Source: Floccifex porci (GTDB lineage: Bacteria; Bacillota_I; Bacilli_A; Erysipelotrichales; Erysipelotrichaceae). From it: a stretch of DNA of 64,000 nt. Made by a program: the position numbers and the translations under genes. Positions 191 through 57,364 of the stretch are shown in pieces (the stretch's first letter is position 1; every line of letters starts with the position of its first letter). The notes beneath the pieces are model-generated. The model was not told where the DNA came from, ran no database searches, and saw only the letters and a program-made list of their open reading frames with translations. The stretch is from NCBI RefSeq assembly GCF_009696175.1, contig NZ_VUMM01000004.1, positions 1-64,000 on the forward strand. The letters are read 5' to 3'.

Positions 191-3100
191 AAGATTCAAC
201 CATTTCAACTTTTTTTAACTTCTTTCTCATAAATAGATTGATGATCATATTAAAGGCGATGGTCATAATAAAACTGATTATAAAACTGGATGGTTTTATC
301 GTTCTACCAAACATAATGTCATCCATTTCTGCCAGATTCATAATTAAATGATGTAAACCAATTCCCAGAATCAATCCGGCAATAGCTCCAATAACTGTTA
401 AAATTGTACTTTCACGATTCACATAAGCACTGACTTCATGAGGAAGGAAACCTAATACTTTAATTGTTGCGATTTCTCGAATACGCTCAGAAATATTTAC
501 ATTGCTTAGATTATAGAGAACAACAAAGGCTAAAGCTGCTGCACATCCAACCAACAGTATAACGATCATTGTTAGACTGGAAACAATGGATTGAAAATTT
601 TCTTCTAGACTGGAGTAGAAAGTGACACTTTTCACATTGTCTATTTTCATTAATGTATTTCCAAGTTTCTTTTCAAAGGTATCAGACTGATCCTTTGTTT
701 TTAACAGACAAACATAGGAAGTAGCAGCCTTTGATTTCCAGGATCGATATGTCTTTCGAGATACAAATATATGGTGTCCCACATAATTTTCATATATACC
801 TGTTATTTTACAGCTTAATTCTTTACCATCCGTATCTTTAAAATGAAGGGTATCTCCAACAGAAAGCCCAACTTTATCGGCTATTTTTTGTGATATGATG
901 ATAGAATCTTCTTTCATCTCTAAATTTTTATTTGAACGTGCATCCTTGAAGGTAATATACTTTCCAATCTTGTCAAAATCATCAAGAATATGAATGGTTG
1001 TACTCATATCTTTATCATCAATGTTAACCGTACCTGCCATCTGTTCTTCTTTTAAATACGACTGGATGCCATTTATTTTATCTATTTCTTTCGTTGAAGG
1101 GCCACTAAGCTTAATAGAAGCATTGTACTGGTAAATCACATTATATTGCTGATGAACAATATCCGAAATACTATCGTTAATTCCAAATCCAGCTACCAGT
1201 AAAGCGGAACATCCTGCTATTCCGATAATGGTCATATAGAAACGTTTTTTATATCGGAATAAATTACGAGCGGTTACCTTATGTAAAAAGGCTAGATGAT
1301 TCCAGATAAAGGATATTTTCTCAAGGAAAATCTTTTTACCGGCTTTGGCAGCTTTAGGTCTCATTAATTGACTTGGAACTTCTTTTAATTCCGATTGGAT
1401 GGAATAATAAGTCGCAAGTAAAGTAACACCTATCATTGAAACAGAAGCCAGTAAAATCAGACCCGGCTGAAATTTAAAACAGATTTTCTCAAGATTGTAC
1501 ATCATATTCCATGCACTGTAGATGACTTTTGGAAAAATATACATCCCAATCGAACAGCCCAGAATGGAACCAAGAATACCGGCACTTAATGCATAGAACA
1601 TATATTTGCTGGCAATCTGTCTTTTTGAATAACCCAGTGCTTTCAGAGTACCGATTTCATTTCGCTGTTCATCCACCATACGTGTCATAGTGGTCATACA
1701 AACCAGAGCAGCAACCAGGAAGAAGAAGACAGGAAAGACTTTCGCAATTCCGTCCATACGATCGGCACAGGCACCATAATCGCGATAAGAATAATGAGAA
1801 TTTCGATCCAGTACGATCCATTCTCCTTTTATTGAATCGATCTGTTCCTGATTTTTCTGGATTTCTTTTTCATACTTATCTTTTGTTTCTTCCAGCTCTT
1901 TTTTGCCATTTTCCAGTTCCTGTTTTGCCTGGTTCAGTTCACTTTGGGCCTGCTGAAGCTGTGCCAATCCACTTTCATATTGTGCCTGTCCACTTACCAG
2001 CTGATTATAAGAAGCATCCAGCTGGGCTTTGGCATCTAATAATAATTCTTTATTCTTTAACAATTCTTCTTTTTGTGCACTTCCCTGATGAATCTGCTCA
2101 ATGGTCTGATCAATCAAAGCAATATTGGCATTGCATTCATCAATCTGGGCCTGAATACTTTCTTTTGTATAAGAAGATAACAGTTCAACCAGACTAGCCA
2201 GCTGTTCTCTTTGTGCAATAATCGCATCACTGGCCAGTCCATTTTCAATTAACCAGTCGATTGCCTGTAATGTGGTATTGTAGAAATCGATATAATCCAG
2301 TTGTTTATTTAAAGACTGAAGCTGACTGATGGCATTTTGAAGCTGTACTTTATTGGCTTCTAATGTTGGCAAAGAAGCTTCTCCCTGTTCAATTTGAGCC
2401 AAAGCATTTTCAACCTGTTCTAAATCGGAATAAACATGAGCATTTTCATTATATTTTGCCCATCCTGCATCCAATTGTGCTTTTGAATCCGCTAATGTTT
2501 TAGAAGAAGCATTGATTTGTGCCTGACCATCGTCAATCTGAGCCTGGGCATCGTTTAATTTTTTCTGAGCCGCATCCATTTCTTCATATAACTGATCTTT
2601 TGCTTCATTCAATTCATTCTGAAGTTTTTGAATACGAGCTTCAATTTGAACAGGGCCTAATTTTTCAATTTTTTTAAGTACCGGTTCAATTAAATCAAAA
2701 TATTCATCACTATAGGTATTTAAGTCTTTACTTCCCTGAACGGATACATCGATTTCTGTATAATAATCCAGAAGGAAATCGGAATCCATAATATAAATGA
2801 AATTATTTACAGAACCAGAACCAATGGAAGAACTTCCTAGTTCATAAGATAAATAATTTGGGTTGTAACATGTACCTACAATTTTATAAGAATCATATTT
2901 AAGTGAATCTTTTATATTTTCATCTCCCTGTGAATACAAAGTAATCGTATCTCCGATTGAAAATCCACCATACAGTTCAGTCGTCGCACTATCAGCCTGT
3001 ACAAGACATTCTTTTTCATTTTCAGGCATACGACCATCAATCAGTCGAATCTGGTTTAATTCCTGATCTTTTTGATAAGATAAAACTTTTATGACCAGTT

Positions 3101-3401
3101 CACTGGCTTCTTTCTGGCACAAAGCATCGATTGAATATCCAGCCTGAACTGATTGGACATTATCCAAATCTTCAATTTCTTTAATATCTTCATCATATAG
3201 TCCTAAAGTAGAATACACTTGTATATCCTGAACATGGTATTTATCGAAATACTGGTCTGCACTGTATTTCATATCGGGAGCACTGGCTTTAATACCAGCA
3301 AAAAAAGCAGTACCAATGGCAACAATCATCATTATCGATAAGAAACGACCGAAAGAATGTCGAATCTCCATTAAAATATTCTTTAAAAATGTTTTTGGCA
3401 T
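174..3401 (-). CDS. FtsX-type ABC transporter permease with long coiled coil
   Basis: Membrane permease of the FtsX/MacB type, 1075 residues, partner of the ATPase encoded just upstream. One N-terminal membrane segment (about residues 18-38) is followed by a MacB-like periplasmic-side domain. Next comes a very long Gln/Ala/Leu-rich coiled coil (about 265-560), then a block of three membrane helices (about 580-700) and a second FtsX block at the C-terminus (about 940-1060). The start codon overlaps the ATPase stop by one base (TAATG), so translation is coupled. Similar permeases in Firmicutes are annotated as putative ABC export or lipoprotein-release systems. The substrate cannot be told from sequence; the coiled coil suggests mechanotransmission or contact with a surface partner. 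Confidence 0.85.
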   Translation of the reverse strand: MPKTFLKNILMEIRHSFGRFLSIMMIVAIGTAFFAGIKASAPDMKYSADQYFDKYHVQDIQVYSTLGLYDEDIKEIEDLDNVQSVQAGYSIDALCQKEASELVIKVLSYQKDQELNQIRLIDGRMPENEKECLVQADSATTELYGGFSIGDTITLYSQGDENIKDSLKYDSYKIVGTCYNPNYLSYELGSSSIGSGSVNNFIYIMDSDFLLDYYTEIDVSVQGSKDLNTYSDEYFDLIEPVLKKIEKLGPVQIEARIQKLQNELNEAKDQLYEEMDAAQKKLNDAQAQIDDGQAQINASSKTLADSKAQLDAGWAKYNENAHVYSDLEQVENALAQIEQGEASLPTLEANKVQLQNAISQLQSLNKQLDYIDFYNTTLQAIDWLIENGLASDAIIAQREQLASLVELLSSYTKESIQAQIDECNANIALIDQTIEQIHQGSAQKEELLKNKELLLDAKAQLDASYNQLVSGQAQYESGLAQLQQAQSELNQAKQELENGKKELEETKDKYEKEIQKNQEQIDSIKGEWIVLDRNSHYSYRDYGACADRMDGIAKVFPVFFFLVAALVCMTTMTRMVDEQRNEIGTLKALGYSKRQIASKYMFYALSAGILGSILGCSIGMYIFPKVIYSAWNMMYNLEKICFKFQPGLILLASVSMIGVTLLATYYSIQSELKEVPSQLMRPKAAKAGKKIFLEKISFIWNHLAFLHKVTARNLFRYKKRFYMTIIGIAGCSALLVAGFGINDSISDIVHQQYNVIYQYNASIKLSGPSTKEIDKINGIQSYLKEEQMAGTVNIDDKDMSTTIHILDDFDKIGKYITFKDARSNKNLEMKEDSIIISQKIADKVGLSVGDTLHFKDTDGKELSCKITGIYENYVGHHIFVSRKTYRSWKSKAATSYVCLLKTKDQSDTFEKKLGNTLMKIDNVKSVTFYSSLEENFQSIVSSLTMIVILLVGCAAALAFVVLYNLSNVNISERIREIATIKVLGFLPHEVSAYVNRESTILTVIGAIAGLILGIGLHHLIMNLAEMDDIMFGRTIKPSSFIISFIMTIAFNMIINLFMRKKLKKVEMVESLKAVE

Positions 3402-4177: not shown

Positions 4178-5032
4178 ATGAAAATTAAAGTAATTGTAGA
4201 TAGCGGGTCTTGTTTGAGTCAGCAGCAAGCCCAAAGAGCCGGACTAGAATTTCTTCCCCTTCAGGTAATGATTGAAGATAAAACGTATCTGGATGGAATT
4301 GATTTAATGACAGAGTCATTATATGACGATTTAGATAATGGATTTATGCCACAAACCAGTTTGCCACCACTGGCAATGATCAAAGATTTATTTGATCGAC
4401 TGGAAAAAGAACAGGTCAGCGATGTGATTCTGATTACTTTATCCAGTGGATTGTCCAGCACCAATGCAACGATACAGGCAATTTCAAAGGAATATCAGAT
4501 AAATGTTCATACTTTTGATATTTATTCTACATTGGCAGTGGAACAGTATCTGGCATTGAGTGCCATTCGTCTGGTAAAACAAGGTGTTGAAATCGATGAA
4601 ATTATGAATCGTTTAAAAGAGAGCATGGAACATTCCAAAGGATATCTGATGCCAGAAAATTTAAATCATTTAGCTAAAGGAGGACGTTTATCTTCAGGAG
4701 CCGCCAAGCTGGCAGGAATGTTAAAGATCGTTCCTATTTTAGAAGTGTCAAAAGATACCCAGGGGAAAGTCGGAAAAGATGGAGAAAAAGTCAGAACGAT
4801 GACAAAGGCCATTGGCAAAGTATGCAAATCTATGATCCAGGATATTAAAGATGGAGAATACGAAGTATATGTCCTGGATTCAAGGAGTGAAAAGTATGCA
4901 CAGATGGCTGAAGATTTATTCAAAGATGAAGGCATTGAAGTGCATCGTATGTCTATAGGAGCTGTTATTGCTTCTCATACAGGAAATGGAGCCATTGGGA
5001 TTCAATATATTAAGAAAGTGAAAGGACATTAA
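4178..5032 (+). CDS. DegV family fatty-acid-binding protein
   Basis: DegV (FakB-type) protein of 284 residues. The family binds a fatty acid and presents it to the kinase FakA for activation to acyl phosphate. Typical landmarks are the N-terminal KVIVDSGSCL, the TSLPP segment (about residue 60), the SSGLSSTNAT loop (about 90) and the GGRLSS motif (about 168). The start has GGAGG seven bases upstream. It is followed after two bases by a second DegV gene, so the two are co-transcribed. No fakA is visible in this window. Confidence 0.85.
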   Translation: MKIKVIVDSGSCLSQQQAQRAGLEFLPLQVMIEDKTYLDGIDLMTESLYDDLDNGFMPQTSLPPLAMIKDLFDRLEKEQVSDVILITLSSGLSSTNATIQAISKEYQINVHTFDIYSTLAVEQYLALSAIRLVKQGVEIDEIMNRLKESMEHSKGYLMPENLNHLAKGGRLSSGAAKLAGMLKIVPILEVSKDTQGKVGKDGEKVRTMTKAIGKVCKSMIQDIKDGEYEVYVLDSRSEKYAQMAEDLFKDEGIEVHRMSIGAVIASHTGNGAIGIQYIKKVKGH

Positions 5033-5034
5033 TT

Positions 5035-5886
5035 ATGAGAGTAGCATTTGTAACCGATACAGGAACAGGGAAAAGCTGTGAACAATGGGAAAAAGAAGGA
5101 ATTTTTTGTCTTCCGCTGCAACTGGAATGTGAGGGTATTTCCTATGATGAATACCAGACAATTACCCATGAACAGGTGATTCAAAAATTACATGAAAAAA
5201 AGATATTCCGTACTTCTTTACCAAAATTAGGTTATATTCAGGATTTATTTGAAACATTAAAGGAACAAGGCTATGATACAATTTTTGCCATTCCCATCTG
5301 CAGAGGATTATCGGGTTGTTATGATGCACTGGAAATGATAGCCAATCAGCTGGATCTGACTTTTATAGGAGTGGATTGTTATGTGACGGCAGTAGTCCAG
5401 ACTCGAATGATTCAGGTGGCAAAACAGATGATCGAACAAGGTCATTCTTTAGAAGAAACGAAAGAATCCGTTCAGACCATTGCGGATTCTGCGGATACGA
5501 TTCTGATGTTTAAAGATTTGCAGCATATGAAAAGAGGAGGACGACTGACACCTGCTGCAGCTGCATTAGCAGGTCTGTTAAAAATTGTTCCAATCTGTCA
5601 TATTAATAAAGAAACAGGCGGAAAAGTGGATACTTTGGATAAAGTACGTACATGGAAAAAAGCGCAGGATAAAGTAATAGATTATATCATAAAAAAAGGT
5701 ATGGATGCTTCTTATACATTTATTATTGCTCATGTAGATTGTTTAGAAGAAGCTAAAGAATATAAAAAACGGATCGAAGAAAGAATTTCTGATGTTCAGA
5801 TTCAGATTATTGATCTGGTAACTGCTGTGGGGATTCATACAGGATTGGGCTGTTTAGCTTTACAGGTGTTTAAAAATATAAAATAG
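5035..5886 (+). CDS. Second DegV family protein
   Basis: A DegV paralogue of 283 residues lying two bases after the first. It keeps the N-terminal beta-strand and Thr/Asp motif (VAFVTDTGTG), a TSLPK segment, the RGLSGCYDA loop in place of SSGLSS, and a GGRLTP motif. Its divergence from the upstream copy suggests a different acyl-chain preference, as is known for FakB1/FakB2 pairs; that is inference. No strong Shine-Dalgarno sequence is visible, so it may rely on translation from the upstream gene. Confidence 0.82.
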   Translation: MRVAFVTDTGTGKSCEQWEKEGIFCLPLQLECEGISYDEYQTITHEQVIQKLHEKKIFRTSLPKLGYIQDLFETLKEQGYDTIFAIPICRGLSGCYDALEMIANQLDLTFIGVDCYVTAVVQTRMIQVAKQMIEQGHSLEETKESVQTIADSADTILMFKDLQHMKRGGRLTPAAAALAGLLKIVPICHINKETGGKVDTLDKVRTWKKAQDKVIDYIIKKGMDASYTFIIAHVDCLEEAKEYKKRIEERISDVQIQIIDLVTAVGIHTGLGCLALQVFKNIK

Positions 5887-5985: not shown

Positions 5986-6012
5986 CAAGTACTATATGAT
6001 ATAATATATAAA
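5986..6012 (+). promoter_or_regulatory. Promoter in front of the tnpB relic
   Basis: A TATAAT box near 6000 preceded by TGA (extended -10), followed by a GAAGGAG Shine-Dalgarno sequence about ten bases before the ATG at 6064. No good -35 is seen. Confidence 0.4.
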
Positions 6013-6063
6013 TAGAAAGACACGTCAAAAGGCTTACATAACCAGAAAAGAAGGAGTCATCCC

Positions 6064-7222
6064 ATGACAAAGATTAAGAGGGGCTTCCAAATCTGCCTGT
6101 ATCCCAACGATGCTCAGAAACAGCAGATTGCTGTTTCGTTTGGCTGTTCAAGATGGCTTTGGAACAACTTGCTGGCGATGTAGAAAGAACGGCACGACAA
6201 TGAGCCTTCTGCTCCATATCTGAGTGCATTTTCCATGAACTAGCTTATCAAACAGCTCAAGAGAGAATATCCATGGCTAAAAGATGCGGATTCAACCGCC
6301 CTGACTGGAACAACTGAGAATCTGCATAAGGCTTATACCCGTTTCTTTAAAGGACAGACCCGTTTTCCAAAGTTCAAGTCAAAGAAACATGAGCAAAGTT
6401 ACATTTCCAAATGCGTCAACAATAACATTGTTATCATCACATCCGCATTCCAAAGCCGGGTTCCGTATACTTTAAAGCTTGAAAACTCCCTCATGGACGA
6501 ATCTGTTCCATTACCATCAGACAGAAAGCATCAGGAAAATACGAAGCATCTGTTCTTTGCGAATATGAAGAAGTTGATCTTCCAAAGACAGGCAAATCAA
6601 TCGGCATTGATGTCGGGCTCAAAGATTTTGCAATTCTTTCTGATGGCACGAAGATCAACATGCCTCGCTTTGACAAGGAATCCGAAAAACGTCTTCGTTA
6701 TTGGCAAAGACTTGCTTCAAGAATGTTTCTGTGGGTTAAAGAGGCAATGAAAAAGAATAAGAATCTGCGGTTGACTGATTTCAGGAACTACCAGAAAGCA
6801 AGGCAGATGTGTGCAAAGATATACGAATATATTGCCAATCAGAGAAAAAACTATCTGTATAAGCTGAGTACATGGCTTGTAAAGACATATGATGTGATTG
6901 TGATTGAAGACCTGAAAGCCAAGGGAATGATGCACAATCATCATCTGTCAAGAGCCGTTGCGAATGTTTCCTGGAACATGTTTGTAAACATGCTTGCCTA
7001 CAAATGTCTGTCTTATGGCAAGAAAATGATTCGTGTTAATCCGAAATACACAAGCCAGACATGCAATGTATGTGCAGCGTCAACAATCGCATGGGTTATA
7101 ACGCATATGGATAGTTGAAGGTCAGAGAATGGAACTGTCCTGAGTGTGGCACTTACCTTGATCGAGACGTCAACGCTGCAATCAATATCAAAGAAACAGG
7201 TTTGGCTGTAGGCTTAGCCTGA
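6064..7222 (+). pseudogene. tnpB: TnpB (RNA-guided nuclease) pseudogene
   Basis: Broken TnpB reading frame. The N-terminus starts at 6064 with a good GAAGGAG, but has in-frame TAG codons near 6181 and 6241. The frame then shifts between about 6440 and 6558, and again near 7075, where a third TAG follows in the last frame. Pieces read in three frames still show the family landmarks: the RuvC aspartate (GIDVGLKDF, about 6611), the glutamate (VIEDLKAKG, about 6900), the zinc-ribbon cysteines (SQTCNVC and NCPECGT) and the last aspartate ([10 protein letters not shown]). TnpB is the RuvC-type nuclease guided by the RNA transcribed from the right end of its own element. This copy cannot make an intact protein. 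Confidence 0.85.
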
Positions 7223-39901: not shown

Positions 39902-40759
39902 ATGATAGATTATAATAAACCAATGCTGGTATTTCAAACCGATTTTACATATAAAGAAGGTGCCGTTTGTGCTATGTATGGTGTGGTGAAAAGTGTAGAC
40001 CGTACGTTGGAAATCATTGATGGAACCCATGAATTGCCTCAATACGATACATGGTCCGCTTCTTATCGTTTATATCAGTCTATGAAATTCTGGCCAGAAG
40101 GAACAATTTTTGTTTCTGTTGTGGATCCGGGAGTAGGAACCAGTCGAAAAGCCTGTGTTGCTCGTACAAAAGATGGATATTATATTGTGACACCCGATAA
40201 TGGATCTTTAACACATATAAAAAAATATGTAGGAATTGAAGAAGTAAGAGAAATAGATGAAACCATCAATCGTTTACATGGAAAAGGAACAGAAGGGGTT
40301 GCGATATTCCATGGACGAGATTTATTTGGATATTGTGCCGCTCGTTTGGCTTCTGGAATGATTACTTATGAACAAGTTGGAAAAGAATATCCAGTGGATG
40401 AAATCGTATGCCATGAGATTTTAGAACCTAAAAAAATTGAAAAGGGAATGGAAGGAATATTTGAAATAAACGATCCAAACTTTGGAAATCTATGGACTAA
40501 TATTTATCTGAAAGATTTTAAAAAAGCCGGATTTGAATATGGAGATTATGTAAACGTTACAATTTATCATAAAGAAAATGTTGTTTTTCAAGATAAAGTT
40601 TTGTTCCATAAATCCTTTGGAATGGCAAAACCAGGACAGCCAATTATCTACAACAATGAATTAATGAAAGTTGCCTTGGCAGTCAGTGTAGGAAACTTCT
40701 GTGAAACATATCATTGTTCTTTTGGATCGGATTGGAAGGTAGTGTTTGAACATGAATAA
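39902..40759 (+). CDS. SAM hydroxide adenosyltransferase (DUF62), copy 1
   Basis: DUF62-family enzyme of 285 residues. Characterised members use water or hydroxide to split S-adenosylmethionine into adenosine and methionine. Motifs: QTDFTYKEGAV at the N-terminus, SVVDPGVGTSRKA (about residue 74), TPDNGSLTHI (about 98) and FHGRDLFGYCAARLASG (about 138). AAGGAGG precedes the ATG. It lies 12 bases after ecfT and overlaps the second copy by 14 bases, so all belong to one operon. Confidence 0.85.
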   Translation: MIDYNKPMLVFQTDFTYKEGAVCAMYGVVKSVDRTLEIIDGTHELPQYDTWSASYRLYQSMKFWPEGTIFVSVVDPGVGTSRKACVARTKDGYYIVTPDNGSLTHIKKYVGIEEVREIDETINRLHGKGTEGVAIFHGRDLFGYCAARLASGMITYEQVGKEYPVDEIVCHEILEPKKIEKGMEGIFEINDPNFGNLWTNIYLKDFKKAGFEYGDYVNVTIYHKENVVFQDKVLFHKSFGMAKPGQPIIYNNELMKVALAVSVGNFCETYHCSFGSDWKVVFEHE

Positions 40760-41594
40760 GACCATTGTATTACAATCTGATTTTGGATTGGTGGATGGAG
40801 CTGTCAGTGCCATGGAAGGGGTGGCACTTAGTGTTTGCGAAGATTTAAAAATACATCATTTAACACATGATATAACTCCTTACAATATTTTTGAAGCCAG
40901 TTATCGCCTGTTTCAAACCATTGAATACTGGCCAGAAAACGTTGTCTTTGTATCGGTTGTGGATCCGGGAGTGGGATCCAAAAGAAAAAGTGTTGTGGCT
41001 CATACAGTAAATGGACAATATATTGTTACACCGGACAATGGAACTTTGACTCATATTAAAAAATTTATTGGGATCGATCAGATTCGTGAAATATCCGAAG
41101 CCGTTAATCGAAGAAAAAATACCGAAGAAAGCTTTACTTTCCATGGACGAGATGTTTATGCCTATACTGCAGCAAGACTGGCAGCTGGAGTGATTTCCTT
41201 TGAAGAAGTAGGAGAAGAATTATCCGTTGATCGCATTGTAGAACTTCCGATTACACGCACACAGGTTAGTGAAAACAGTGTAAAAGGCAGCATCGATATA
41301 TTAGATGTACGATTTGGTTCATTATGGACAAGTATTAAACGAGAAGAATTTTTCTTATTGAATCCAGAATATGGAAAACGTTATGAACTAACCATCTACA
41401 ACAACGATATGCTGGTATATCAGAATCAGGTAATCTTCGGAAGAAGCTTTGCGGATGTACGAATAGGATCTCCAGTAATCTATATCAATTCCTTATATCG
41501 AGTAGGAATTGCGATCAATCAGGGATCCTTTGCCAAAGCCTACAATATTGGAGTGGGCGCTCAATGGAGCGTTGAGATTACCAGAATTGACTAG
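40746..41594 (+). CDS. SAM hydroxide adenosyltransferase (DUF62), copy 2
   Basis: A DUF62 paralogue of 282 residues with the same landmarks: QSDFGLVDGAVSAMEG, SVVDPGVGSKRKS, TPDNGTLTHI and FHGRDVYAYTAARLAAG. The N-terminal motif here is closer to the family consensus (SDFG) than copy 1 (TDFT). Tandem copies are unusual; they may form a mixed trimer or use different nucleoside substrates (inference). Last gene of the ECF operon. Confidence 0.85.
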   Translation: MNMNKTIVLQSDFGLVDGAVSAMEGVALSVCEDLKIHHLTHDITPYNIFEASYRLFQTIEYWPENVVFVSVVDPGVGSKRKSVVAHTVNGQYIVTPDNGTLTHIKKFIGIDQIREISEAVNRRKNTEESFTFHGRDVYAYTAARLAAGVISFEEVGEELSVDRIVELPITRTQVSENSVKGSIDILDVRFGSLWTSIKREEFFLLNPEYGKRYELTIYNNDMLVYQNQVIFGRSFADVRIGSPVIYINSLYRVGIAINQGSFAKAYNIGVGAQWSVEITRID

Positions 41595-41620
41595 AAAAGA
41601 AGCATTTACATGCTTCTTTT
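41595..41620. terminator. Bidirectional terminator
   Basis: Stem AAAAGAAGCAT / ATGCTTCTTTT with a 4-base loop, between the second DUF62 gene and the convergent small gene. Confidence 0.9.
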
Positions 41621-41944
41621 TATTGTGTCTATAATTTGTTGTGCTTCCTGTTTTTCTTCAAAATAAGAACCACGTTCAAACTGAACCGGATGATCGGATA
41701 TATACAAAGCTAAATGAGAACCATCTTTCATTTCAAATTGAATTCCAATATAAAATTTTGGAAGATCTAACCAGCCCATTTGAACTTTACCATCCAACAC
41801 CAGATGTTTAAAAGGATCGGTTTTTCCTTTATAACGAGCATCTTCACAAACAATACTCATCTTCACAATATCAGAGATAGGATAAACTCCTTTTGTTCCT
41901 TCTAATATCGTGAAATTATTATTATCAATCACAATATTTTTCAT
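41606..41944 (-). CDS. Small cytosolic protein, paralogue family member 1
   Basis: Protein of 112 residues with no recognised domain and no signal peptide. It shares a pattern with the proteins at 44178-44540 and 57011-57364: an I-L-x-G-x-x-G-x-Y segment, D-I-x-K, an E-D/K-A-x-x-x-G-K-x-x-P-F motif, then F-Y-I/V-G-x-x, K-D-G and Y-I/V-S. Here these are ILEGTKGVY, EDARYKGKTDPF and FYIGIQFEMKDG. The start is the ATG at 41944, with GGAGAC upstream; an earlier ATG nine codons upstream is less likely. It lies 19 bases after the secreted-protein gene and is probably co-transcribed with it. Confidence 0.7.
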   Translation of the reverse strand: MKNIVIDNNNFTILEGTKGVYPISDIVKMSIVCEDARYKGKTDPFKHLVLDGKVQMGWLDLPKFYIGIQFEMKDGSHLALYISDHPVQFERGSYFEEKQEAQQIIDTIKRSM

Positions 41945-41963
41945 AATCTTTGTCTCCTTTTTC

Positions 41964-42446
41964 TTAATCATACCATATTATGTCGTAAGGTTCACTTTCG
42001 ATTATTTCTATTGTTATTTCGTCTGTAGGGTTTAAACTATATGGAGTTCCTGCATCAGATACTCTATATACTAATGTATAATTAACTTTATCACTGTACA
42101 CCCCTTGAGCAGTTCTAGTAACTTGAACAACGTAAGTTGCAGAGCTACCTGAATATGTTTTACTAATTTGTCTTGGAACAACGGTACCGGTATTACCTAA
42201 AATTGTTGAAGTGATGGTTACTTGACTGAAAGATAAATCAGATATTGCATATATAACATCATTTGTATAACTGATTCCAGCCGTTGCACTAAAGGAATAT
42301 CTTAAACTATTATTTGTATAATATGAACCACTTATTGATTTTGAAATTAATTTTCTTCCTGAAGCAGCAAATGTCATACATGTAGAAATGGCAATAATCA
42401 ATGTCAATGCAGATAAAATGCCGAAAATACGATTCTTTTTTTTCAT
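41964..42446 (-). CDS. Secreted beta-rich protein of unknown function (cassette 1)
   Basis: Exported protein of 160 residues. The signal peptide covers about 1-27 (KKKNRIFG start, cleavage after TFA). The mature part is rich in Ser, Thr, Tyr and Val in alternating patterns, suggesting a beta-sandwich, and ends with an acidic ESEPYDIIWYD tail. No cysteine remains after cleavage. AAAAGGAGACC precedes the ATG. It is divergent from the BlaI-type repressor gene and precedes a member of the small-protein family. No known family recognised. Confidence 0.7.
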   Translation of the reverse strand: MKKKNRIFGILSALTLIIAISTCMTFAASGRKLISKSISGSYYTNNSLRYSFSATAGISYTNDVIYAISDLSFSQVTITSTILGNTGTVVPRQISKTYSGSSATYVVQVTRTAQGVYSDKVNYTLVYRVSDAGTPYSLNPTDEITIEIIESEPYDIIWYD

Positions 42447-42791
42447 AATTGGTCTCCTTTTAAAAGTATCAAAGTAATAATATACAAACTACAATCAGGT
42501 CATTATATGATTTATTTTAAAGACTTGATTATCAAAAAATAAAGTAGAAAAATTATTTGAAGTAGACTATTACAATATTAAAATACCCATATTCATGATT
42601 TCTTAAATTTTTTTTGTATTATTAACCATTTTTTGATTTTTATTGTTCGTATATATCACCTTTCTTAAATATAGATAACGTTATCTTTAATTTCATTATA
42701 TATCAATTGTAAAAAAATACAAGAGTTAATAATATAACATAACTTGTAAATAAATGTTTGCTTTGCTATAATTTTTAAGGAGGAGAAGCCG
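42447..42791. promoter_or_regulatory. Divergent control region of cassette 1
   Basis: AT-rich 345-bp gap. The plus-strand promoter of the repressor gene is TTGTAA (42744-42749), 17 bases, TATAAT (42767-42772). A perfect palindrome AGATAACGTTATCT lies at 42673-42686. An inverted repeat TACAAG (42718-42723) / CTTGTA (42743-42748) overlaps the -35 and contains the TACA/TGTA half-sites known for BlaI/MecI operators. A TATAAT for the minus-strand gene lies near 42510. Confidence 0.6.
42673..42686. promoter_or_regulatory. 14-bp palindrome, candidate operator (cassette 1)
   Basis: AGATAACGTTATCT is perfectly self-complementary and lies between the divergent genes. A one-mismatch copy is at 45681-45694 and a near copy, one base shorter, at 57387-57397. 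Confidence 0.55.
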
Positions 42792-43166
42792 ATGGAATAT
42801 ATACAGTTAACAAAAAGAGAAAATCAGGTTATGGATATTTTATGGAAAGAAAATCATGAGATGTCAGCAAATGAAATAGCACAAACTACAGAAGGATTAA
42901 GTATTTATACAGTTTCACAGGTTCTTCAGCATTTATTATCTATTGGATATGTTAAAGTATCGGGAATTGGGAAAAACAAAAAATCAATTGCTCGTTTATA
43001 CAGTCCATGTATTTCTGAATCTGAATACATATCTTCTTTTATTAAGAAAGAAACATTTGAAGAACTGACACTTCATTTTATTCAAAATAACGATGACTTA
43101 GAATCTATTATAAAACTGGAAAAATTAATTGAACAAAAGAAAAAGGAATTGAATCAGAAAGTATGA
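42792..43166 (+). CDS. BlaI/MecI-type transcriptional repressor, copy 1
   Basis: Winged-helix repressor of 124 residues: KRENQVMDILWKENHEMSA opening, recognition helix around SIYTVSQVLQHLLSIGY (about 37-53) and a C-terminal dimerisation helix ending in a Lys/Gln-rich tail. BlaI-type repressors are cut by the partner M56 protease when a signal is sensed. It differs from copy 2 only at residues 4 and 23. AAGGAGG lies eight bases upstream. Its stop overlaps the next start (ATGA). Confidence 0.88.
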   Translation: MEYIQLTKRENQVMDILWKENHEMSANEIAQTTEGLSIYTVSQVLQHLLSIGYVKVSGIGKNKKSIARLYSPCISESEYISSFIKKETFEELTLHFIQNNDDLESIIKLEKLIEQKKKELNQKV

Positions 43167-43516
43167 ATATAAGTATTTCTTCTTTATTTATTACTTTGTG
43201 TGTTTCTTTATTATTTATTCTATTTTTCAGTATGATATTAACACACAAGAAAAGTTATCGTTTATTTCGAGCTGATCTGTTATTCATACTGGCAATTGTG
43301 ATCTGTTTAAGAATGATTTTTCCAGTTGAATTTCCATTCACAAAAACAATTCCTTTACCAGTCATTATGAATCCAATAATGGATTTTTTAAATTTTGAAT
43401 TGTTTTCACAACAATTTAAAGTGGTGTATGTTTTATTATTCATATGGATAATTGGAATTGTGATAGGATGTATAAAATGGGCTGGAATATCATTTCTACA
43501 AAAATATAAAGAATAA
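43163..43516 (+). pseudogene. Truncated BlaR1-type M56 membrane protease, copy 1
   Basis: Only 117 residues remain of a protein that is 364 residues in copy 2: three N-terminal membrane helices, without the HExxH protease motif or the extracellular end. The first 81 residues match copy 2 except at residue 24. After FELFS the sequence departs into a different but still BlaR1-like helix (VLLFIWIIGIVIG) and stops at LQKYKE. This looks like a mosaic of two alleles followed by deletion. The product cannot act as a protease. Confidence 0.8.
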
Positions 43517-43701
43517 AGTATTATGATTTTTATCATAAGAGTTCAGGTTATTATAGGCTTGTTTCAGTTTATTTTTTTTGACTAACATTTGATTAATTCT
43601 CCATACCGTTTCAATCGTATGTAGTACTTTTTAGGCACTGTTGGTGGTGTCAATATCCTTTAAAATAGAGGGGATTACGAGAGTTATGTGCTTTAATCGC
43701 G

Positions 43702-43719
43702 CTCTCCTCACCTCCACCA
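43702..43719 (+). other. tmRNA/tRNA 3'-end-like sequence (possible att remnant)
   Basis: CTCTCCTCACCTCCACCA ends with an encoded CCA, as tmRNA and tRNA 3' ends do. The matching 5' acceptor strand (GGAGGTG) is absent upstream, so it is not a complete RNA gene. Integrases often leave such ends at att sites. Confidence 0.35.
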
Positions 43720-43730
43720 AGTGAAAAATA

Positions 43731-43776
43731 AAAGTGTCAAAAGGCTTTAAATAAAGCGTATTTGGCACTTTTTATT
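43731..43776 (+). terminator. Compound terminator hairpin
   Basis: AAAGTGTCAAA (43731-43741) pairs with TTTGGCACTTT (43761-43771), with an inner GCTTTA / TAAAGC hairpin, followed by Ts. No intact gene precedes it, so it is probably left from a lost one. Confidence 0.6.
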
Positions 43777-43935
43777 ATGTTTTTTTTACACTTGACAACC
43801 TTTTTGGCAACCTTTACAGAAAAAATAGCTTTTTTCTGTATAATATTAATGGTAAGCTCTCAATGAATCGCCCCTGTCAAGTAGACAGCTTAAATGATTA
43901 AAAATCTTTGAAGGACTATAAATTCTAATATAAGA

Positions 43936-44103
43936 ATGTACAGAAGGGGATGCAGACATTTTATGTTGATATTTATAGAGTATAAAAGTGCAAAAGGAAT
44001 GAATGGTAAAAGCGTAATAGATTTGTTTAACCGCTATCGTGTGATAGATTATATTGATGATTATTATGAAGCATTGCATACCACGGGCTTCAATGAGAAA
44101 TAA
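43936..44103 (+). pseudogene. DUF3791-like protein remnant
   Basis: A 55-codon frame (inner ATG at 43963) contains FIEYKSAKGMNGKSV, FNRYRVIDYI and YYEALHTTGF. This matches the core of small DUF3791 proteins, which often pair with DUF3990 proteins in toxin-antitoxin-like or accessory loci. The C-terminal part after LHTTG is missing and no ribosome-binding site or partner gene is seen, so it is treated as a fragment. Confidence 0.5.
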
Positions 44104-44150
44104 TAAAGGAATGGACCCCACTTATTAAGAGTTCATTCCTTTATTTTTTG
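44102..44150. terminator. Bidirectional terminator
   Basis: Perfect 12-bp stem AATAAAGGAATG (44102-44113) / CATTCCTTTATT (44134-44145) followed by Ts on the plus strand. It serves the minus-strand cassette 2 genes as well. Confidence 0.8.
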
Positions 44151-44177
44151 TAATATATTTACTACAGGAGAAATGAT

Positions 44178-44540
44178 TTATGAAATTCGTTTTTCAATCT
44201 TACGTTTAATCAGGTTCCCTTCTTTTACATCTTCTTTATAAATATCAGTATTGAATCTGGTTGTCCTATCTGAAATATAAGCAGCTTTTATTATATGATC
44301 TTTTAAAACAATCTTTAATCCAACATAGAAACTTGGTTCTCCGAAAATGGTATAAAACGTTGTACCACCTAAAACCTGATGTACAAAAGGCTGAGTTTTT
44401 CCTCTGAATTTAGCATCTTCATTTAAAAGAGATACTTTTTCGATATCTTTGTAGTTCACAAAACCTTTATCACCAATTAGAATATTAATTCTATTATTAT
44501 CATCATCAAATTCAATACATTTAAATTTATTCTGTTTCAT
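44178..44540 (-). CDS. Small cytosolic protein, paralogue family member 2
   Basis: Protein of 120 residues, same unrecognised family as 41606-41944 and 57011-57364. Matching segments are ILIGDKGFVNYKDIEKVSLL, NEDAKFRGKTQPFVHQVLGG and EPSFYVGLKIVLKD. No signal peptide. The ATG at 44540 is eight bases from AAAGGAGG and is preferred over a GTG nine bases earlier. It lies 33 bases after the secreted-protein gene, repeating the gene order of cassette 1. Confidence 0.72.
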   Translation of the reverse strand: MKQNKFKCIEFDDDNNRINILIGDKGFVNYKDIEKVSLLNEDAKFRGKTQPFVHQVLGGTTFYTIFGEPSFYVGLKIVLKDHIIKAAYISDRTTRFNTDIYKEDVKEGNLIKRKIEKRIS

Positions 44541-44573
44541 GTATGTCACCTCCTTTATAAAATAATAAATAAA

Positions 44574-45149
44574 TTATAGATAGTAAGTAGTTGATCCTGT
44601 AAATGTTTGTGAGTAAACAGCCGTGTAGTCAATATAACCGTAAATGGTTACACTACGTCCTCCATTTGTAATAGATGCGGAACATCTTGGATTTTTAGAA
44701 TTTTGTGGTGCTCCTGGAGCACTGTAGTTGTAAACATTATATGCTCCAATAGAAGTGATTAAATTTGTACTTGAATTATAATACAATGTTAACGTTACGT
44801 ACAATGTACAATTATACATTGGATCCGAGAAAATTCCTGTTCCTCTACAAATTACAGATACATTAATGGTTCTAGGAACATTCGTAGCACGCATTCCAGA
44901 CCATGCACCATCATATACGACTTCTACACTGGCAACTTCTGTTGAAAGGCTTCCTAATTGATTTCCATTTTCATCAATAACATATGATTCATTTGTTTCA
45001 CCTGATAAAGTATCGATAATTACCGCTTCCTCAATATTTGTGTTTTCTGTCGCCATGACAGGTGTAGCAGAAAATATAACAAATAGAGATGCAAATGTAA
45101 AAAATAAATTTTTAATCAAATTTTTCATATTTAAACATGTATGATACAT
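44574..45149 (-). CDS. Secreted beta-rich protein of unknown function (cassette 2)
   Basis: Exported protein of 191 residues (184 if the inner ATG is used). Signal peptide with hydrophobic core LFFTFASLFVIFSATPVMA. The mature part has an acidic start, then Ser/Thr/Tyr-rich beta-type sequence with three cysteines (VICRGTG, YNCTLYV, PRCSAS). It occupies the same place as the secreted gene of cassette 1 but is not clearly homologous to it. An AAGG five bases before the first ATG supports that start weakly. The leader contains a long inverted repeat. Confidence 0.68.
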   Translation of the reverse strand: MYHTCLNMKNLIKNLFFTFASLFVIFSATPVMATENTNIEEAVIIDTLSGETNESYVIDENGNQLGSLSTEVASVEVVYDGAWSGMRATNVPRTINVSVICRGTGIFSDPMYNCTLYVTLTLYYNSSTNLITSIGAYNVYNYSAPGAPQNSKNPRCSASITNGGRSVTIYGYIDYTAVYSQTFTGSTTYYL

Positions 45150-45176
45150 TTGTACCTTGCGAATAAAGTATCATAC
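45139..45176 (-). promoter_or_regulatory. Leader inverted repeat with short upstream frame
   Basis: GTATGATAC (45139-45147) and GTATCATAC (45168-45176) are a perfect 9-bp inverted repeat with a 20-base spacer. On the minus strand AAAGGAGC plus ATG opens a 20-codon frame through the hairpin that overlaps the real start in another frame. It may be an operator, or a hairpin that modulates translation. Confidence 0.4.
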
Positions 45177-45333
45177 GCTCCTTTCTCTTTCTGTTAAAAT
45201 GAAATAGAACCTTATTCTATTTATTTAATTTAAGGCTTTGTCCTTTTAAAGGAGAGTATAGCCCAGGTCCTATTTTTTTGTTTATAGTTGGATAAGTCTA
45301 TGTACTTTTATGTCTTGCAAGATTACGAGAATA

Positions 45334-45377
45334 GATCACCTTTGGCCAGGCAAGGTTCTAGAAAGGTGGTCTTTTTT
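45334..45377 (+). ncRNA. Hairpin in IS110 left end (possible bridge-RNA segment)
   Basis: GATCACCTTT (45334-45343) pairs with AAAGGTGGTC (45362-45371, one G-U), followed by six T directly before the transposase ATG. IS110 elements encode a bridge RNA next to the transposase; position fits, but the loops cannot be verified without the full element. Confidence 0.3.
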
Positions 45378-45623
45378 ATGACCCACTATATTGGTGTGGA
45401 TATCGCTAAATTTGTCCACTACGCTTGTATCATTGATCATCTCGGTAAAGTACATCAAACTTCTTTTCCTTTTGATAATTCTGCTGATGGATTCCAGCTG
45501 TTCTTATCAAAATTTTCTTCTTATGATAAAGGCGATGTTGTCATCGGTTTTGAATCGACCGCTCATTATCATGAAAATCTCCTTTTCATTTATGTTAAAA
45601 ATAGAATACAATCAATGGTATAA
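45378..45623 (+). pseudogene. IS110-family transposase, N-terminal fragment
   Basis: The ATG at 45378 opens MTHYIGVDIAKFVHYACII, the DEDD-type (RuvC-like) N-terminus of IS110 transposases, with the first catalytic Asp in GVDIAK and the Glu in GFESTAHYHENL (about residue 58). The frame ends after about 81 codons. The rest of the DEDD domain and the C-terminal Tnp20 domain with the catalytic serine are lost. It cannot transpose. Confidence 0.85.
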
Positions 45624-45794
45624 CTGCATCGTACCCATATGTTTCAAATCTTTATTGCCCATATTTCCTTTCTTAAATTTAGATAACGCTATCTTTAATT
45701 TCATTATATATCAATTGTAAAAAATTACAAGAGTTAATAAATTACCTTGTAAAGAAATATTTGCTTTGTTATAATTTTCAAGGAGGAGAAGACG
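45624..45794 (+). promoter_or_regulatory. Control region of cassette 2 repressor
   Basis: Promoter TTGTAA (45747-45752), 17 bases, TATAAT (45770-45775). Candidate operators: AGATAACGCTATCT (45681-45694, one mismatch from a palindrome) and TTACAAG / CTTGTAA (45725-45731, 45746-45752), which overlaps the -35. Confidence 0.6.
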
Positions 45795-46442
45795 ATGGAA
45801 TATGTACAGTTAACAAAAAGAGAAAATCAGGTTATGGATATTTTATGGAAAGAAAATCATAAGATGTCAGCAAATGAAATAGCACAAACTACAGAAGGAT
45901 TAAGTATTTATACAGTTTCACAGGTTCTTCAGCATTTATTATCCATTGGATATGTTAAAGTATCAGGAATTGGGAAAAACAAAAAATCAATTGCTCGTTT
46001 ATACAGTCCATGTATTTCTGAATCTGAATACATATCTTCTTTTATTAAGAAAGAAACATTTGAAGAACTGACACTTCATTTTATTCAAAATAACGATGAC
46101 TTAGAATCTATTATAAAACTGGAAAAATTAATTGAACAAAAGAAAAAGGAATTGAATCAGAAAGTATGAATATAAGTATTTCTTCTTTATTTATTACTTT
46201 GTGTGTTTCTTTATTATTTATTCTATTTTTCAGTCTGATATTAACACACAAGAAAAGTTATCGTTTATTCCGAGCCGATTTGTTATTCATACTGGCAATT
46301 GTGATCTGTTTAAGAATGATTTTTCCAGTTGAATTTCCATTCACAAAAACAATTCCTTTACCAGTCATTATGAATCCAATAATGGATTTTTTAAATTTTG
46401 AATTGTTTTCAGAAATTAAAGTAATGTATGTTCTATTTTTTA
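45660..46442 (+). repeat. Direct repeat, copy 2
   Basis: Nearly identical to 42652-43440. Together the copies show a recent tandem duplication with about 3 kb between corresponding points. This copy continues into a full-length M56 gene. Confidence 0.85.
45795..46169 (+). CDS. BlaI/MecI-type transcriptional repressor, copy 2
   Basis: Winged-helix repressor of 124 residues, differing from copy 1 only at residues 4 (Val for Ile) and 23 (Lys for Glu). It should therefore bind the same operators. AAGGAGG lies upstream, and an ATGA overlap couples it to the intact M56 protease gene, the usual BlaI-BlaR1 arrangement. Confidence 0.9.
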   Translation: MEYVQLTKRENQVMDILWKENHKMSANEIAQTTEGLSIYTVSQVLQHLLSIGYVKVSGIGKNKKSIARLYSPCISESEYISSFIKKETFEELTLHFIQNNDDLESIIKLEKLIEQKKKELNQKV

Positions 46443-47260
46443 TATGGATGACTGGAATAGGATTTGGCTTAATAAATCATATTAAAAATCTTATTGTTAC
46501 AAACAAATTTAAAGATAGAATTATAAGAAAATCAAGATGTTTCAAAATGTCAGAACTTTTACAACAGAATGTGAGTCCGGATTATAATGTCTATATTTGT
46601 GATGCTGTATCGGCACCAATGGTAATTGGATTTAAAAAATGTATTTTTATCCCAGAGCAGGAATATTCACAAATCGAAATGGCTAACATTTTAAAACATG
46701 AAGCCCAGCATTTAAAACAGAATGATTTTATATTTAAACAGATTGTTAAGCTTCTTACTATTATTTACTGGTGGTTTCCACCTGTTTATCTGTTAAAAAA
46801 GAATATTGATCTGTATGTTGAAATACGAGTGGATGAAAAGACAACGGATTCATTGAATGAAAATGAGACAATGGAATATGTCCAAACTCTTATCAGTGTT
46901 CAAAAGAAAATAATGGAAGATCATTCAAAACTATCAAAAGTCATTTCCAGTAATATGATTGGAGAAAATCAGGACATTCTTTCGTATCGTGTGAACTATC
47001 TGTTGAATAAACCCATTCATAAAAAAACAAATAAAATTATACTATGCCTTTTGTTTTTATTGCCATTGGCAAGCAATTCCATTATTTTTGAAGCATATTT
47101 TGAACGATCTGAAGAATTAGAAGGAACTTATTCTTCTGAAGATTGTTATTTGATTAAACATAAAGATGGTACGTATTCTCTAAAATTTGGGAAAGAAGTG
47201 ATGCCAATCGAAAATCCAACAGAATTCATTGAATCTGGAATGAAAATAGTAAAGGAGTGA
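46166..47260 (+). CDS. BlaR1-type M56 membrane metalloprotease
   Basis: Membrane sensor-protease of 364 residues. Helices at about 5-25, 36-55, 86-108 and 280-300 surround a cytosolic M56 peptidase domain with the zinc motif HEAQH (178-182) and a later candidate ligand Glu219 in VEIRVDE. Unlike BlaR1/MecR1, the extracellular part is not a penicillin-binding domain but only about 60 residues (EAYFERSEELEGTYSSE onward). The signal is thus unlikely to be a beta-lactam. The expected target is the co-encoded BlaI-type repressor. Confidence 0.88.
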   Translation: MNISISSLFITLCVSLLFILFFSLILTHKKSYRLFRADLLFILAIVICLRMIFPVEFPFTKTIPLPVIMNPIMDFLNFELFSEIKVMYVLFFIWMTGIGFGLINHIKNLIVTNKFKDRIIRKSRCFKMSELLQQNVSPDYNVYICDAVSAPMVIGFKKCIFIPEQEYSQIEMANILKHEAQHLKQNDFIFKQIVKLLTIIYWWFPPVYLLKKNIDLYVEIRVDEKTTDSLNENETMEYVQTLISVQKKIMEDHSKLSKVISSNMIGENQDILSYRVNYLLNKPIHKKTNKIILCLLFLLPLASNSIIFEAYFERSEELEGTYSSEDCYLIKHKDGTYSLKFGKEVMPIENPTEFIESGMKIVKE

Positions 47261-47266
47261 AAAAAT

Positions 47267-47482
47267 ATGAAAAGAGTTTATGCAATCTGTTTAGCAATTG
47301 TTTGTTCTTTCTCTTGTATTCAACCAGTTTTTGCACAGGAAAATATCAGCCAGATTGAACCAAGATCTGACGTTATTGATTGGAGATATAAAATGGAAAA
47401 TGGGAAACTTTACAAACGCTTATATAATTTTACAAAAGAACAATGGATAGGAGATTGGATTTATGTAGGAAATGTAAATTAA
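47267..47482 (+). CDS. Small secreted peptide with WRYK motif
   Basis: Protein of 71 residues. The signal peptide covers about 1-24 (cleavage after VFA). The mature 47 residues contain DVIDWRYKMENGKLYKRLYN and end WIGDWIYVGN, rich in Trp, Tyr and basic residues. AAAGGAG precedes the ATG, six bases after the M56 gene, so it belongs to the repressor-protease operon. I know similar short WRYK-type peptides only as hypothetical proteins of gut Firmicutes. It could be a secreted signal, ligand or antimicrobial peptide; none of these is shown. Confidence 0.72.
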   Translation: MKRVYAICLAIVCSFSCIQPVFAQENISQIEPRSDVIDWRYKMENGKLYKRLYNFTKEQWIGDWIYVGNVN

Positions 47483-57010: not shown

Positions 57011-57364
57011 TTAGTTGCTAAGACAAATACGAATTGCTTCTGCCTCTTTTCGATCCTCTTTATATTGATCTGTACCAACTTGTGTTTTTTCTTTAGAGAC
57101 ATAAATAGCACAAATTGTTCCATCTTTCATTATTATTTTTAATCCTACAAATAAATATGGCTCAGAAAAGATACCAGCAGGTAATGGACCATTTGGAACC
57201 ACTGCTAAAAAAGGTTCCTGTTTTCCTCTTTTACTTGCTTTTTCATTCAAAATCCATACTTTATCAATATCACAAAGATTATAAGAACCTGTTGTACCAT
57301 CCAATATTGTAAAAGTATCTGAATCAAATGAAACACTTCTAAATGATTTCTTGATGTAATTCAT
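57011..57364 (-). CDS. Small cytosolic protein, paralogue family member 3 (orphan)
   Basis: Protein of 117 residues in the same unrecognised family as the cassette proteins at 41606-41944 and 44178-44540. Matching segments: ILDGTTGSYNLCDIDKVWIL, NEKASKRGKQEPF and EPYLFVGLKIIMKDG. AAAGGAAACC precedes the ATG. No secreted-protein or repressor gene is adjacent, but a near-copy of the cassette palindrome lies 23 bases upstream, which links it to the same control. About 170 bases downstream appear empty. Confidence 0.72.
   Translation of the reverse strand: MNYIKKSFRSVSFDSDTFTILDGTTGSYNLCDIDKVWILNEKASKRGKQEPFLAVVPNGPLPAGIFSEPYLFVGLKIIMKDGTICAIYVSKEKTQVGTDQYKEDRKEAEAIRICLSN

Follow-up and report, generated by a model that had tools for sequence, protein, structure and literature searches.

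The 64,000-nucleotide stretch of Floccifex porci DNA considered here (contig NZ_VUMM01000004.1, positions 1 to 64,000 of the forward strand; hereafter, the window) contains, twice within 6 kb, an arrangement in which the genes for a BlaI-type repressor and a membrane protease of the M56 family face those for small secreted and small cytosolic proteins. By its protease and repressor the locus is related to BlaR1/BlaI, from which it differs in its sensor and in its proposed output. The reading that we favour, and consider reasonably probable, is that of a BlaI/BlaR1-type switch, in which BlaI would repress bacteriocin-like secreted protein/immunity operons and the M56 protease, together with a small secreted peptide (here named pep), would sense an outside signal and relieve the repression.

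According to the proposed mechanism, BlaI dimers would bind a GATAACGTTATC-type palindrome immediately after the divergent −10 element and keep the adjoining operon off. Such an operon would encode a small secreted protein, B, probably bacteriocin-like, and then an immunity protein, either the cytosolic PH-fold protein A or, at other loci, a membrane protein of approximately 50 residues, T; B would kill and A would protect. The intact M56 protease and the co-transcribed, secreted pep would form the sensor, with a 57-residue outside tail replacing the penicillin-binding domain. Upon detection of the outside signal, M56 would cleave BlaI, and production of B together with its immunity partner would follow. 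The gene anatomy, the BlaI-M56-pep unit, the promoter-operator arrangement, the B-then-A order and the fusions of M56 with pep or target domains, on which the proposal is built, are features of the sequences themselves.

The protease and the repressor

BlaR1 is a membrane M56 gluzincin with an HEXXH...E motif, encoded in an operon with a BlaI-type repressor and associated with a divergent target promoter and operator (PMC9834060). The intact M56 protein of the window (46166-47260, plus strand) has the features of this class, being a multi-pass membrane protein that matches PF05569 (E 6e-26), carries the HEAQH motif at residues 178-182 and has H178, E179, H182, E219 and D223 invariant across 14 relatives. 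BlaI belongs to PF03965 (E 3e-9, above the curated cut-off; E 3.4e-9 for BlaI1, 42792-43166, and 3.3e-9 for BlaI2, 45795-46169, both on the plus strand), also matches the BlaI structure 1p6r (E 0.0012), and is encoded immediately 5' of M56, both in the window and at 20 of the 28 loci described below, some of the remaining ones being at contig ends.

The sensor differs. A 57-residue, HKDGTY-type extracellular tail follows the last hydrophobic segment of M56, and the match to the BlaR1 structure 8exp in the Protein Data Bank (PDB; E 3.4e-12) is confined to the protease part. No penicillin-binding sensor domain was found in M56, Pfam and NCBIfam giving no transpeptidase or penicillin-binding protein (PBP) family beyond that part, nor was any beta-lactamase or PBP gene found among the open reading frames (ORFs) around the locus. 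Neither a beta-lactamase nor a PBP2a is encoded next to the window locus, and the neighbouring genes specify secreted, immunity-like or membrane proteins. The initial annotation had described an outside sensor of about 60 residues that is not a penicillin-binding domain, and a locus not devoted to beta-lactam resistance, and both statements are borne out.

The system resembles BlaR1/MecR1-BlaI/MecI of Staphylococcus aureus and Bacillus licheniformis in its winged-helix repressor, in the membrane M56 protease encoded in the same operon and in the divergent, operator-bearing promoter. Unlike them, it has no beta-lactam-binding domain but the 57-residue tail and a separate secreted pep, its probable targets are secreted or immunity-like proteins, and its putative operator is GATAACGTTATC rather than TACA/TGTA.

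The putative operator

In the aligned divergent promoters the order of elements is TATAAT, approximately 9 nt, GATAACGTTATC or GATAGCGCTATC, the ribosome-binding site and ATG, and the same spacing between −10 and palindrome recurs upstream of unrelated divergent genes in several genera. Putative operator 1 of the window (GATAACGTTATC, 42674-42685) lies 9 nt downstream of the divergent −10 at 42695-42700 on the minus strand; BlaI1 itself has a candidate promoter, TTGTAA-17-TATAAT, at 42744-42772 on the plus strand, identified only as a consensus match. Putative operator 2 (GATAACGCTATC, 45682-45693) accompanies a divergent promoter, TTGTAA-16-TATAAT, at 45730-45703 on the minus strand. Among 25 BlaI upstream regions, which include near-duplicates, GATARCGYTATC is present exactly in eight and with at most one mismatch in ten, with 0.03 expected from shuffles, and in 569 kb of locus DNA its exact matches (five were counted) fall only at the BlaI sites themselves. 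The 2.02 Mb genome of the organism contains four GATAACGYTATC sites, one of which is operator 1, all at BlaI or B1 promoters.

Since the genes downstream are unrelated, BlaI is the factor common to the palindrome-bearing loci, and it is the candidate to bind the palindrome. The presence of a conserved palindrome over the divergent promoter supports the regulation of secreted proteins by the switch, which is very probable. The initial annotation had proposed a signal-responsive control of secreted proteins by one duplicated cassette; the BlaI/M56 switch and the conserved palindrome agree with the first part of that proposal, and the notion of a single cassette present twice is to be abandoned, as discussed below.

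The classical BlaI operator is of the TACA/TGTA type (PMC7253601), and BlaI proteins of Clostridium thermocellum have been found by DNA affinity purification sequencing (DAP-seq) to bind CTAT-type inverted repeats instead (PMC8457756). The conserved site of the present loci is GATAACGTTATC, not the TACA/TGTA-type TACANNTGTA, with a less regular TTGTA...TACAA dyad at −35 in some loci. The clostridial proteins are similar to those considered here in their small regulons, BlaR1-like partners and CTAT-core inverted repeats; pep and the secreted outputs of the B-A type set the present loci apart, none being described in the accessible part of that report. Many divergent promoters also have a dyad of less regular form, TTGYA-N5/6-TRCAA, across the −35, a candidate for an additional binding site.

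pep and the sensor side of the protease

The pep gene (47267-47482, plus strand) encodes a secreted peptide of 71 residues with the pattern WRYKxxNGKLYKRLYNxxxxxWxGDW, and only copy 2 contains both it and an intact protease with HEAQH, as initially annotated. An alignment-based search for M56 in 273 genomes of the host's family showed that the clade with short M56 proteins is rare (19 of 273 genomes). In the regions around the 28 M56 genes that were examined, pep lies directly 3' of M56 in 19 cases, mostly at 20 nt or less or with overlapping genes; in the G021/G071/G571 group of genomes it is vestigial. In one of these genomes (G021:C34) M56 itself ends, at its C-terminus, in a fused pep domain (E 1.9e-10, using a profile built without the G021 sequence). 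The tail of M56 at G042:C43 and the small secreted protein whose gene diverges from that of BlaI are homologues (E 2e-10), as are, in G514, a domain of the pep protein and the divergent secreted protein (E 3e-10). By these three homologies, the sensor part of the protease has elements in common with the secreted side. At a tentative level, it is proposed that the extracellular portion of the protease consists of domains of the secreted proteins under its control plus a separable peptide, so that the cell might gauge its own, kin or rival bacteriocin-like proteins and tune the production of toxin and immunity proteins accordingly, which would be a proteolytic alternative to pheromone two-component control. 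As to pep, we infer a role as a subunit of the sensor and not as a free signal.

Regulators of the RsgI/sigmaI type of Clostridium thermocellum are membrane proteins with an outside domain homologous to the secreted proteins that they regulate. Offered here as a lead only, they share this homology between regulator and secreted targets with the present system, from which they differ in that RsgI is an anti-sigma factor, with carbohydrate-binding modules and no M56 protease.

Strong pep matches are limited to the host's family in a class-wide search of 395 genomes. Two candidates were discarded: a common domain for the HKDGTY tail of M56 and pep failed in profile comparison, and a 936-residue G059 protein, at first a pep match, vanished under a better profile. 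No M56 or B1 relatives were confirmed on viral contigs, and no pep or B2 relatives were found on plasmids. Three distant M56 genes are located on plasmids, and their annotation shows no comparable neighbours. On C. difficile and Clostridioides plasmids (loci L173 and L174), BlaI-M56 pairs have no resistance gene nearby. A secreted domain with the pattern GWRFSG...YYTYNP..GxYYxVAN, for which no family was matched, is encoded beside BlaI-M56-pep in two genera (L178, 2311-2976; L185, 5308-5652), and in G570 it is preceded by a PDGGF domain.

Secreted proteins and their partners

In copy 1, B1 (41964-42446, minus strand), a secreted, beta-rich, putative bacteriocin-like effector, is followed by A1 (41606-41971, minus strand), a small cytosolic protein and the putative immunity protein of B1, the start of A1 overlapping the B1 stop by 8 nt. 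The copy-2 pair consists of B2 (44574-45149, minus strand), another secreted protein with a putative bacteriocin-like function, and A2 (44178-44549, minus strand), its putative immunity protein. An N-terminal hydrophobic segment is present in B1, B2 and pep and absent from A. A 9-bp inverted repeat, GTATGATAC...GTATCATAC, separates the B2 start from a good ribosome-binding site (window positions 45131-45175) and may disturb the 5' end of B2. An orphan member of the A family is encoded at 57011-57364 on the minus strand.

Across genomes A is found directly after B for 10 of 12 B genes, and both exceptions have T nearby. B1 gave six matches in 5 of the 273 family genomes, and B2 gave matches in seven genomes, the six intact or partial copies all being directly followed by A. 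Homologues of B1 adjoin BlaI-M56-pep in a second genus (G052) and are located close to it on contig C8, in agreement with the expectation that relatives of these proteins would neighbour BlaI-M56 genes; this does not extend to A, which mostly occurs without them (four of nine A-bearing genomes have no M56 of the short clade), so that A was discarded as a candidate for the system's core. Pairs of B1 or B2 with A are found alone as well. The A family, present in 9 of 78 sampled genomes in one to eight copies each, is sometimes found in tandem or behind a helix-turn-helix (HTH) domain of the XRE type, a distribution that fits an immunity repertoire with orphans, short of proof. Fusions of A domains behind an XRE-type HTH, with some tandem arrays, are seen at L032, L036 and L075 (a 337-residue ORF at 6009-7022).

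The four proteins initially listed as unknown, namely A, B1, B2 and pep, stay without a significant match in Pfam, NCBIfam, PHROGs and PADLOC. The AlphaFold2 (AF2) model of A, obtained with 19 relatives, consists of a curved sheet and a C-terminal helix (predicted local distance difference test score, pLDDT, 85; predicted template modelling score, pTM, 0.78). In structural comparison with VIA-align nearly all of its top rows are PH/PTB/FERM-type domains, with Z values of 6.3-7.6, under 8, and Foldseek E values greater than 0.6, so that the fold is best called PH-like and predicted. The B1 model is a beta-sheet of modest confidence (pLDDT 66) with no significant Foldseek match, and its best VIA-align row, an uncharacterised Listeria protein (Z 7.9), is within the range common for models with no clear match.

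The genes facing BlaI vary by locus and genus, and include secreted proteins, an isomerase and small membrane proteins. At the locus with the M56 closest to that of the window (G014, 58%), BlaI faces genes for a 147-residue secreted protein, a 60-residue membrane protein and a thiol isomerase resembling the PedC/BrcD-like bacteriocin disulfide isomerases (E 7.5e-10, below the curated cut-off of that model). The divergent genes encode a 205-residue secreted and a 72-residue membrane protein at G042:C30; a 173-residue secreted protein, the 50-residue membrane protein T and a split B1 homologue in G052; two secreted proteins in G570; and membrane proteins including T in G071/G021. The T family, of approximately 50-60 residues, occurs beside B1 homologues and BlaI-M56 loci (L008, 15891-16043; L010, 7896-8054; L135, 4960-5112; L125, 4700-4879), and is apparently an alternative to A. 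Of the outputs initially considered, toxin/immunity is favoured by the fixed B-then-A order, the bacteriocin-maturation-like gene at the locus of the closest relative and the interchangeable small partners.

Known class II bacteriocin loci are run by peptide-pheromone two-component systems. With those that contain a PedC/BrcD-type thiol isomerase and a small immunity protein, the present loci have in common a small secreted protein, a small partner gene and, in G014, the isomerase, but they are associated with BlaI-M56 instead of two-component control.

Duplication and history of the copies

All genes of the layout claimed to occur twice in 6 kb were found in place in both copies. The term duplicated cassette holds for one block only: positions 42653-43458 are repeated at 45661-46458 with 95.5% identity, a segment comprising the operator region, BlaI and the first, N-terminal third of M56. 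B1 and B2 belong to unrelated families, their kinship being rejected because neither sequence nor profile comparison found a detectable relation; A2 and A1 are 36% identical; and copy 2 contains an IS110 transposase N-terminal remnant (45288-45623, plus strand; PF01548, E 8e-13).

In copy 1 the M56 gene is an N-terminal fragment without the catalytic motif (43163-43516, plus strand), and the same truncated form is found in a third copy on contig C8, 96.6% identical to copy 1 over 1093 bp. On C8 an A1' pseudogene (MSNKDLKH...) begins directly after the operator, the position at which copy 2, whose DNA matches C8 from 45637 on, retains nine codons of an A-gene 5' end (MGNKDLKHM; 45637-45662, minus strand, directly downstream of operator 2). 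The IS110 remnant interrupts this A-gene remnant and separates B2-A2 from operator 2. A2 lies in a 488-nt stretch that recurs with 98% identity at C12:35.6k, where the A2 gene directly faces, in divergent orientation, a different BlaI of 122 residues; at C12:35k stops break M56 and a degenerate pep follows. From the C8 pseudogene, the copy-2 remnant and A2 facing BlaI on C12, it is probable that A originally faced BlaI-M56-pep over a single operator and that secreted B-A pairs moved in and out. As arranged, operator 1 can, in principle, still drive B1-A1 in copy 1. The truncated M56 of copy 1 would be unable to cleave and, since BlaI1 and BlaI2 differ at only two residues, the copy-2 protease could serve both.

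Adjoining the C8 BlaI-M56 fragment and A genes (L008, G000:C8) are two minus-strand genes (1900-3138 and 5028-5804) for proteins with a common N-terminal half, which has a weak match to a VG15 phage protein, and different C-terminal ends; they look like polymorphic toxins. Directly upstream of the window locus, at 39902-41594, tandem S-adenosylmethionine (SAM) hydroxide adenosyltransferase genes follow an ECF-type transporter permease-like gene.

Alternative explanations

Several observations weigh against the proposed switch or its output. The 25 BlaI upstream regions represent only about seven independent lineages, since several are near-duplicates, and the copy-2 secreted pair no longer adjoins operator 2. 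B1 and B2 have no bacteriocin-family match in Pfam and NCBIfam at E <0.01, the PedC/BrcD match is the sub-threshold one given above, and the bacteriocin role of B and the immunity role of A are proposals drawn from sequence context. For A, a regulatory function may even apply in place of immunity, given that most of its occurrences are with neither B nor BlaI and that some are fusions to an XRE HTH. Finally, in G059 two A genes carry the palindrome, in the ATAACATTAT form, with no adjacent BlaI. Taken with the palindrome before B1' on C8, also away from BlaI, the latter case suggests that the regulon may extend beyond the locus. The G059 genes, the XRE-A fusions and the insertion sequence (IS) elements and pseudogenes around the copies could also be explained if the palindrome belonged to another regulator, such as an XRE protein of the A family, with BlaI-M56 a passenger on a mobile block that shuffles with B-A; this is quite improbable, as the palindrome is found beside BlaI where no A gene adjoins (G014, G570, G514 and G071/G021), leaving BlaI as the common factor. 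A beta-lactam sensing or resistance locus, to which only BlaI and M56 family membership would point, is hardly credible given the missing penicillin-binding sensor domain, a BlaR1 structural match that ends at the protease part, a tail of 57 residues and the lack of a beta-lactamase or PBP gene among the surrounding ORFs.

BlaR1-family proteases classically answer wall-active drugs. The switch could accordingly be real and its output be other than toxin and immunity, namely envelope-protective, adhesive or stress-response proteins made upon sensing wall damage or antimicrobials, and the lack of toxin matches for B1 and B2, as well as the Listeria protein as the top structural look-alike of B1, would agree. 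This is nonetheless unlikely, with the regulator being kept while the divergent outputs change completely, each with a small partner gene, with a bacteriocin-maturation-like gene in G014, and with A-family paralogue arrays and orphans that resemble immunity repertoires. Somewhat less unlikely is a pep acting as a free autoinducing pheromone, which would be exported, accumulate with density or kin and bind the M56 tail, leading to BlaI cleavage as in quorum sensing: pep is small, has a signal peptide and is encoded together with its putative receptor, and pheromone control is common at bacteriocin loci, for example in the plantaricin and sil systems. No operator was seen upstream of pep itself, however, and pep runs in the same direction as blaI-M56, its start often overlapping the preceding stop, and in one lineage the peptide is fused to M56, as fits a stoichiometric subunit. 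The BlaI/BlaR1-type switch, with pep as part of the sensor, is retained as the preferred reading.

Significance

BlaI/M56 pairs are common in Firmicutes and usually receive the annotation of beta-lactam regulators, also where a resistance gene is missing, as on the pCD6-like plasmids of C. difficile (PMC6807378). Within the collection of papers searched, the literature search retrieved none linking BlaI-M56 to bacteriocins or describing pep, an absence that is no proof of novelty. With the present analysis such pairs gain a testable role, a searchable operator and a candidate peptide sensor. If the proposed switch is true, the operator would predict new families of secreted and immunity proteins, and a signalling device of the resistance type would also serve interbacterial competition among gut bacteria.

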